Assembly: GCF_000787815.1 (NCBI RefSeq)
Contig: NZ_BBPO01000028.1
Coordinates: 1 to 50,104, forward strand
Origin: Streptacidiphilus neutrinimicus
Lineage (GTDB): Bacteria > Actinomycetota > Actinomycetes > Streptomycetales > Streptomycetaceae
Reading direction: 5' to 3'
Length of the DNA: 50,104 bases
Part shown: positions 48,173 through 48,385 of the stretch, piece by piece
Position numbering within the stretch: the stretch's first letter is position 1
How the letters are laid out: the number at the start of each line of letters is the position of its first letter
Made by a program: the position numbers and the translations under genes
The notes under the pieces: generated by a model
Told to the model about the DNA's origin: nothing
The model's database searches: none
Seen by the model: only the letters and a program-made list of their open reading frames with translations

Positions 48173-48246
48173 CGGGACGTGGCGCAGCTTGGTAGCGCAC
48201 TTGACTGGGGGTCAAGGGGTCGCAGGTTCAAATCCTGTCGTCCCGA
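48173..48246 (+). tRNA. tRNA-Pro (anticodon GGG)
   Basis: The 74-base gene forms a cloverleaf with acceptor stem CGGGACG/CGTCCCG, a D-arm GCGC-AGCTTGGTA-GCGC, the anticodon arm CTTGA-CTGGGGG-TCAAG with anticodon GGG, and the T-arm with GGTTCAAATC. Discriminator base is A, and CCA is not encoded. Apparent proteins ending RVGTTGFEPATP on the other strand are translated tRNA and not genes. Confidence 0.95.
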
Positions 48247-48274
48247 CTCGGACGCTAGTCCAGAGTCGCAGGTC

Positions 48275-48317
48275 AGAGCCGGTGTCTGATGAATCAGACA
48301 CCGGCTCTCGACGTTTT
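48275..48317 (+). terminator. Intrinsic terminator after tRNA-Pro
   Basis: A perfect 15-bp stem (AGAGCCGGTGTCTGA, 48275-48289, with 48294-48308) and TGAA loop is followed by TTTTT at 48313-48317. This is the only terminator in the window with a clear T-run. Confidence 0.9.
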
Positions 48318-48332
48318 TCAGCCCACTTCAGC

Positions 48333-48385
48333 TGGGAGCAGATTGGGAGCGAAGCTGGGAGCACTCGGCTCCCAATCCGCTCCCA
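48333..48385. repeat. Cluster of TGGGAGC heptamers, direct and inverted
   Basis: TGGGAGC occurs at 48333, 48344 and 48356, and its complement GCTCCCA at 48368 and 48379. The outer 18-base arms (48333-48350 and 48368-48385) pair with one mismatch. Spacing of 11-12 bp equals about one helical turn. The pattern is like integrase arm-binding sites beside a tRNA attachment site. Confidence 0.6.

Follow-up and report, generated by a model that had tools for sequence, protein, structure and literature searches.

The tRNA-Pro(GGG) locus and the DNA behind it

The window, meaning the whole stretch of 50,104 nucleotides that we analyzed, comprises bases 1-50104 of contig C157 (96,689 bases), which belongs to an 8.4-Mb genome assembled in 184 contigs. 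Both ARAGORN and Rfam placed one tRNA gene in the window, a tRNA-Pro(GGG), and the features that follow it are listed in Table 1. Behind this gene lies a terminator with stem arms at 48275-48290 and 48293-48308 and its T-run at 48314-48318, followed by three forward and two inverted TGGGAGC heptamers, whose starts are spaced by 11, 12, 12 and 11 bp over 48333-48385. The next stretch has a lower GC content (62.9% in 48386-48692, vs 72.7% in the window), and blastn matches that extend from the array past 48386 show 85-94% identity overall and end between 48500 and 48600. A preliminary description of this DNA had named the tRNA-Pro, the T-run terminator, the five phased TGGGAGC/GCTCCCA heptamers, the lower-GC gap and a broken regulator, and all five were borne out. 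The relative G012 has an intact HTH protein of 283 aa, to whose residues 1-77 the regulator remnant aligns; a second frame continues this alignment to residue 103, and the remainder is missing. Of the DUF6879 accessory genes named in the preliminary description, the DUF6879 gene itself is intact and the small third gene is disturbed in its frame.

Table 1. Features at and behind the tRNA-Pro(GGG) gene (window coordinates).
Feature	Position	Strand	Evidence
tRNA-Pro (anticodon GGG), candidate target gene, kept intact	48173-48247	+	ARAGORN; Rfam RF00005, 63.8 bits
Putative attachment core (tRNA positions 33-75, 43 bp), recurs at element ends	48205-48247	+	copies in own genome and many relatives
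Intrinsic terminator, 16-bp perfect stem and TTTTT	48275-48318	+	inverted-repeat search; behind tRNA
Putative arm-type heptamer 1, TGGGAGC	48333-48339	+	motif search; conserved geometry
Putative arm-type heptamer 2, TGGGAGC	48344-48350	+	motif search; conserved geometry
Putative arm-type heptamer 3, TGGGAGC	48356-48362	+	motif search; conserved geometry
Putative arm-type heptamer 4, inverted	48368-48374	-	motif search; conserved geometry
Putative arm-type heptamer 5, inverted	48379-48385	-	motif search; conserved geometry
Conserved element-end DNA, no gene called	48386-48578	+	blastn
Broken HTH_31 regulator (frameshift, C-terminus missing)	48693-49055	-	PF13560 7e-15
DUF6879 protein, intact	49062-49583	-	PF21806 2e-56; 52% to G012 homologue
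Small gene of the HTH/DUF6879 set, frame-disturbed	49608-49853	-	comparison with relative

The window holds seven copies of TGGGAGC in total, compared with a shuffle mean of 10.85 (at least seven in 87 of 100 shuffles), so this count is ordinary; the clustering and phasing are not. Five of the seven fall inside 53 bp, an arrangement expected about 1e-7 times per window by a rough Poisson estimate from the shuffle mean. It is the conservation of the array in relatives that settles its reality. Rfam also returned miRNA-like matches over the array, which lay far below their gathering scores and were dismissed as chance.

A homology boundary at the tRNA end and recurring cores

Ten loci, eight from the genus and two from other genera, were compared with positions 40000-50104 of the window. 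In five relatives that have no array behind the tRNA (G001, G003, G008, G011 and G013; for G011, 462 bases past the tRNA were compared), the left flank matched at 77-86% and the match ended exactly at 48247. Homology continued past this point into the array in three others, reaching 48552 in G006, 48593 in G012 and 48353 in G007, and in the two loci from other genera (G014 and G028) it barely exceeded the tRNA. Because the left flank is shared and homology ends at 48247, we take the left side to be common chromosome and the DNA past 48247 to be replaceable. The boundary thus found sits at the 3′ end of an intact tRNA, as is characteristic of an integrative element.

The 43-bp core recurs on contig C177 of the same genome, at 107304-107346(-) (43 bp, 100%), within 134976-135178(-) (query positions 26-228 at 97%, the entire array included) and at 141486-141527(+) (42 bp, 100%). 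This query was matched in all 61 genomes (our own and 60 relatives), and in at least nine of the 14 genus genomes extra core copies follow the tRNA further along its contig, in the same orientation. The preliminary description had proposed the tRNA 3′ end as an attachment site, to be checked against strains lacking the insertion and to be abandoned if gene order were identical in all relatives with no repeat of the tRNA end; the boundary in the five array-less relatives and the core copies speak for the proposal and contradict that alternative. As to the second tRNA 3′ copy that it suggested looking for, C157 has none up to 96,689 apart from the tRNA itself; three exist on C177 and may be linked to the element.

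The C177 core at 141486-141527 is inverted and has TGGTCCCC repeats at about +106 and +117, which looks like an inversion or a chimeric end. Beside this core copy, a gene block that appears stress-type by eye (C177:141577-159777) is 95-99% identical to G012:C4:4907760-4923508, compared with about 76-83% for the chromosome flank between these two species, and a recent transfer of the block is therefore likely.

The exact array pattern was found in nine of the 14 genus genomes, as 12 distinct arrays that all stand behind a tRNA core, and was missing from the other five; a reversed-pattern control gave no match in any of the 14. Across the family sample it occurred in 10 of 394 genomes (nine Streptacidiphilus and G339), a figure that understates its spread because the pattern requires two inverted heptamers and G014, G136 and G144 have shorter arrays. 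Scanning of named genomes gave eight array stretches, five in Streptacidiphilus and three in Streptomyces. The arrays of the three Streptomyces and of G339 follow a tRNA-Pro(CGG) and have different linkers (the CGG anticodon was read by eye in these four and by ARAGORN in other genomes). The exact pattern was absent from viral_contigs, where a looser pattern hit one contig that we judged by eye to be unrelated. The phage and plasmid collections contained no record covering 80% of the query; the 20 matches listed for each hit the tRNA, with one plasmid record reaching query position 144.

The geometry of the heptamers was assessed at 33 core sites from 11 genus genomes, a set outside which further copies are known, with distances counted from the first core base. 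Heptamers stood at exactly +128, +139, +151, +163 and +174 at eight of these sites, and at least three stood between +118 and +174 at 15 (2+2 variants included). A forward heptamer was present within 120 bp upstream at eight of the 33 and absent there at 25. These upstream heptamers formed pairs at -114/-58 (twice), -115/-58 and -77/-20, the last also with a 57-bp interval, or were single at -43, -49, -55 and -60. Among the elements at tRNA-Pro(CGG), the distal cores of G339, G418 and G419 are preceded by TGGGAGC-catc-TGGGAGC. In related elements, then, short repeats lie at fixed distances on both sides of the core, and it is from these elements that the two-sided arrangement is read, the left arm being the one located for the element in the window. 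Heptamers that flank the core and are kept while core, linkers and cargo change look like the arm-type sites of a tyrosine integrase. The right-arm sequence from C177, used as a query, matched in three of the 14 genus genomes, from which it appears that right arms are poorly conserved except for their heptamers.

We also encountered ends of another element kind with the same core, three of which have a lone heptamer at +81/+82, within the terminator. Here the integrase adjoins the core, and GGGGACCA pairs are probably located at -124/-113 of the far end. An integrase-adjacent kind with other repeats at the same core points to two element kinds that share one target and differ in their arm repeats. 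A tyrosine integrase of the second kind lies beside the core at C177:105906-107186, with relatives of 60-68% identity beside cores in G012 and G010 and none in viral_contigs.

The array could instead act at the RNA level, by forming a hairpin or an additional terminator after the tRNA, and not be a protein-binding site. The stretch 48248-48400, which includes the terminator stem, folds with a z-score of -7.5, and complementary linkers are seen in many of the Streptacidiphilus copies as well as in those of Streptomyces; against this, the linkers are non-complementary in G003 (att/gagg) and G011 (ggat/gagc) and the heptamers are kept all the same. Two direct heptamers with no exact inverted partner make up the first of the G138 copies and that of G144, heptamers reappear upstream of some distal cores, and a strong terminator already stands ahead of the array. 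We consider an RNA device very unlikely.

Integrases beside the arrays and the reading of the heptamer

Among the matches listed, a genome search with PF00589 showed none in the elements of G418 and G419; an HMM built from the collected integrases detected a tyrosine recombinase of 505-508 residues inside both. This overturned the notion that all heptamer elements are without an integrase. PF00589 scores the two proteins at 21-23 bits, vs a cut-off of 27.1; Pfam assigns them PF14659, PF22022 and a weak PF00589, together with a LacI-type HTH (PF00356; 2.6e-15 and 5.9e-13) at residues 302-344, between the catalytic motifs. Relatives were present at E <= 1e-30 in 41 of 200 family genomes. All 32 integrases gathered with the LacI-bearing query have the LacI-type HTH between their catalytic motifs, and relatives in G014, G012 and our own genome are without this insert. 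Tyrosine integrases with the LacI insert include those at L115:5968-7485, L117:6501-8027 and L244:10899-12413.

A tRNA-Pro(CGG) was located in the 1.5-kb flank at 13 of 30 integrase loci, with 120-320 bp between the 3′ ends of tRNA and integrase, and at 12 of these 13 (L231 being without) a phased array of the TGGGAGA, CGGGAGA, CTGGAGA or GGGAGC type stands behind the tRNA terminator. Wider flanks from 11 genomes, namely nine with no tRNA in the first stretch plus G165 and G175 (both also among the 13), revealed tRNA-Pro(CGG) and an array in all except G105 (10 of 11); the tally leaves out eight of the 30 loci. G136 offers a complete case, in which the tRNA, array, LacI-type integrase, a small gene and cargo are followed by a distal core at 31.8 kb, after a heptamer pair. 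The small gene resembles the NikA/MobC-like gene of G418 (Pfam), and its long neighbour, which has no Pfam match in the G418 copy, is a putative relaxase by position only. In G014 such an arrangement stands at tRNA-Pro(GGG), the target seen in the window: the array separates the tRNA from an integrase that belongs to this family but has no LacI insert.

A search for a resident integrase common to the array-bearing genomes examined 40 PF00589 stretches in five genomes and found no heptamer cluster in any of them; its regular expression was poor and recognised 16 proteins, and the result carries little weight. In G013, two clusters of PF00589 matches lie near the tRNA-Pro island among the matches listed (C1:5688560-5692312 and 5749874-5752344), with like-scoring copies elsewhere in the genome.

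Taken together, it is very likely that tRNA-Pro(GGG) is the attB of a group of integrative elements, that 48205-48578 is the attL of one of them and that the heptamers are arm-type integrase sites. The compared sequences themselves show that homology stops at the tRNA 3′ end, that the 43-bp core recurs, that the terminator varies between element ends and that related elements have heptamers on both sides of the core. Decisive support for the interpretation comes from relatives in which a tyrosine integrase gene is adjacent or close to the array, at tRNA-Pro(GGG) in G014 and at tRNA-Pro(CGG) in many Streptomycetaceae; the same arrangement favours the integrase-site role that the preliminary description had given the heptamers, which stay putative as such. 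On integration, a tyrosine integrase would recombine the core, and the tRNA 3′ part and terminator of the element would replace the originals, such that the tRNA would remain functional. The terminator behind the tRNA was probably supplied by the element, and those at other element ends have different stems. The five heptamers, about one per helical turn, would be bound by the N-terminal arm-binding region of the integrase to build the recombination complex, with one or two heptamers at the opposite end of the element as the second arm.

Which part of the integrase might read the heptamer was judged from the 22 of 32 integrases with a readable array, their arm motifs being assigned by eye. Where the array ends in C, the integrase N-terminus has F at position 3 and H at position 22 (8 pairs); where it ends in A, both positions are Y (13 pairs). 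The last base thus goes with the N-terminus in 21 of 22 pairs, the exception being L234. Most of this association seems to track phylogeny and is partly a matter of relatedness. In L217 and L218, the N-terminal 60 residues are 58% identical to the reference, compared with 80-91% for all other parts, and the motif is TGGGAGA; L221 and L222 are 78% identical overall and have a changed LacI helix, yet retain F/H and TGGGAGC. From these two patterns we infer that the heptamer is more probably read by the N-terminal domain than by the LacI domain. The LacI domain as the main reader, a notion whose appeal lay in TGGGAGC being the CebR half-site, was rejected, given that G014 has an array and an integrase with no Pfam LacI domain, and that the last base of the heptamer tracks the N-terminus and not the LacI helix.

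These two observations also weigh against the idea that the heptamers are operator half-sites, either of a LacI-type regulator (CebR, TGGGAGCGCTCCCA) or of a regulator belonging to the element. TGGGAGC is the exact half of the CebR box as given in PMC5332605, and many integrases of the associated family contain a LacI-type HTH; but the abutted palindrome TGGGAGCGCTCCCA had no match in the window at up to two mismatches, and facing exact heptamers are at least 5 bp apart in the arrays inspected. An operator function is accordingly rated as very unlikely. As a practical matter, the identity of the heptamers at 48333-48385 with the CebR half-site means that gap-tolerant motif searches could misread such arrays.

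Extent of the element, its cargo and known systems

The preliminary description had pointed to the DNA right of 50104 for an integrase. Neither Pfam over the whole of C157 nor our HMM right of the tRNA (to 96.7 kb) revealed a tyrosine recombinase, and the probable integrase, as judged by synteny, is instead on contig C124. C157 offers neither a recombinase on that side nor a distal core, and the element in the window is thus not closed at its right end. Positions 45710-48593 of C157 match the G012 island at tRNA and array, 49175-49885 and 83993-96618 match G012 4813196-4826302 in order, and C124 1-40092 matches G012 4830482-4852177 largely in order, one piece overlapping another and about 11 kb being specific to C124. 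This synteny makes C124 the most likely continuation of the element, with about 4 kb lying between the two contigs, and marks C157 49.9-84.0 kb as additional DNA that G012 lacks at that place. The join of C157 and C124 is based on this single relative, in which the syntenic backbone stands behind a second, downstream copy of the array and not behind the tRNA. The element would accordingly run through the remaining C157, with its 34 kb of extra DNA, into C124.

C124 encodes a TrwB/TraG-type coupling protein, a TraG-type ATPase, PrgI, NlpC/P60, a small HTH_17 protein and an integrase with an open frame that is syntenic with, and 85% identical to, that of G012; no relaxase was identified among the genes scanned. 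The T4SS-type, HTH_17 (xis-like) and integrase genes suggest that the element is conjugative or the remains of a conjugative element. Behind the relatives of the C124 integrase in G012 and G002 we observed GGGGTCGA or GGGGCCAA pairs, not TGGGAGC, so the C124 integrase may read another arm. Past the window, the extra DNA at C157:53022-83903 holds a gene for a group II intron protein with HNH, an IS110, Cas1 and Cas5 from a CRISPR system that by eye is I-E-like, and a LanB/LanC-type lanthipeptide set accompanied by a precursor-like ORF of 53 aa.

The junction could be real and the element a relic, its function lost and the array now an inert fossil. The broken regulator suggests a partial decay; together with the broken small gene, the 34 kb of extra DNA with its IS110 and group II intron protein, and the lack of a distal core on C157, it brings this reading to somewhat short of an even chance. 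Against it stand the five heptamers, their spacing and the tRNA, all of which are intact, and the C124 integrase, which is open and syntenic.

Applied to 18 element stretches, some of them cut by contig ends, our HMM gave no match at E < 0.1 in 12. Units bounded by heptamers on either side, in which no tyrosine recombinase was detected, were delimited in G339 (6.1 kb), G007 (9.8 kb), G010 (14.3 kb) and C177 (27.8 kb). The G339 unit has a small gene, a 1440-residue RHS protein and a 155-residue protein; that of G007 has lasso-peptide-like genes (named by eye), with some genes broken. The G010 and C177 units encode very large proteins, with RHS repeats in one C177 protein (Pfam, the largest proteins being outside the scan) and no Pfam match in a 1138-residue G010 protein. 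A 7.5-kb unit of G138, which encodes a CAP12-type TIR protein and a sacsin-like ATPase, is the first of a series in which an integrase-bearing element follows it. Related elements that share the repeats carry toxin and defence genes.

One tentative and rather unlikely reading is that the shared arm code (TGGGAGC and variants) marks trans-mobilised cassettes, that is, integrase-less cargo units at tRNA-Pro(GGG) or (CGG) that would be moved by one integrase family resident elsewhere or arriving later, many of its members with a LacI-type insert inside the catalytic domain that would serve a second site. The cargo it refers to comprises RHS toxins, TIR/sacsin-like defence genes and lasso-peptide-like genes, and both att arms are kept. 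The tRNA-Pro core with phased heptamers provides a sequence signature for element ends even without a nearby integrase, and it reveals toxin and defence cargo units missed by integrase-based searches. Motif and N-terminus change together, in two proteins contrary to the relatedness seen in the remaining sequence, and this makes an arm-recognition code directly testable. The kind of element is known; for the arm code and the LacI-insert integrases we found no description in the literature searched, which left subscription journals largely outside, and both may be published.

pSAM2 targets a tRNA-Pro, and the preliminary description had drawn a parallel with it. The T4SS-type genes and integrase on the probable backbone C124 make the element look unlike a pSAM2-type AICE, and none of the pSAM2-type hallmarks (RepSA, Prim-Pol, FtsK-like TraB) figured in the results of general domain scans. 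The likeness to pSAM2 and other AICEs (PMC3218068) consists of an actinobacterial element, a tyrosine integrase and a tRNA target, and the difference is the syntenic backbone with T4SS-type genes (TrwB/TraG-type, PrgI). ICEs with tyrosine integrases at tRNA genes, several of which may accrete at one tRNA, are described in PMC9513070. Compared with these, our elements share the tRNA 3′ end as target, direct repeats, serial elements and mixed cargo, but differ in targeting tRNA-Pro(GGG) and in having a left arm made of a five-site array, with inverted sites at a fixed distance.

CIMEs are cis-mobilizable elements that keep attL and attR and have lost integration and transfer genes (PMC5704250). 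The units of G339, G007, G010 and C177, four delimited elements, resemble them in being flanked by heptamers and lacking a tyrosine recombinase, a likeness that concerns the integrase only. They differ in that their arms are like those found on integrase-bearing elements of other genomes; the distal cores of the C177 and G010 units adjoin an integrase whose arm repeats are different. If C124 belongs to the element in the window, the CIME class does not fit that element. Finally, as with the arm-binding-domain tyrosine recombinases of PMC8138268, the integrases have an N-terminal region before the core-binding and catalytic domains, and arm sites near the core; what sets them apart from the proteins described there is the LacI-type HTH between the catalytic motifs, a feature of the entire set collected with the LacI-bearing query.
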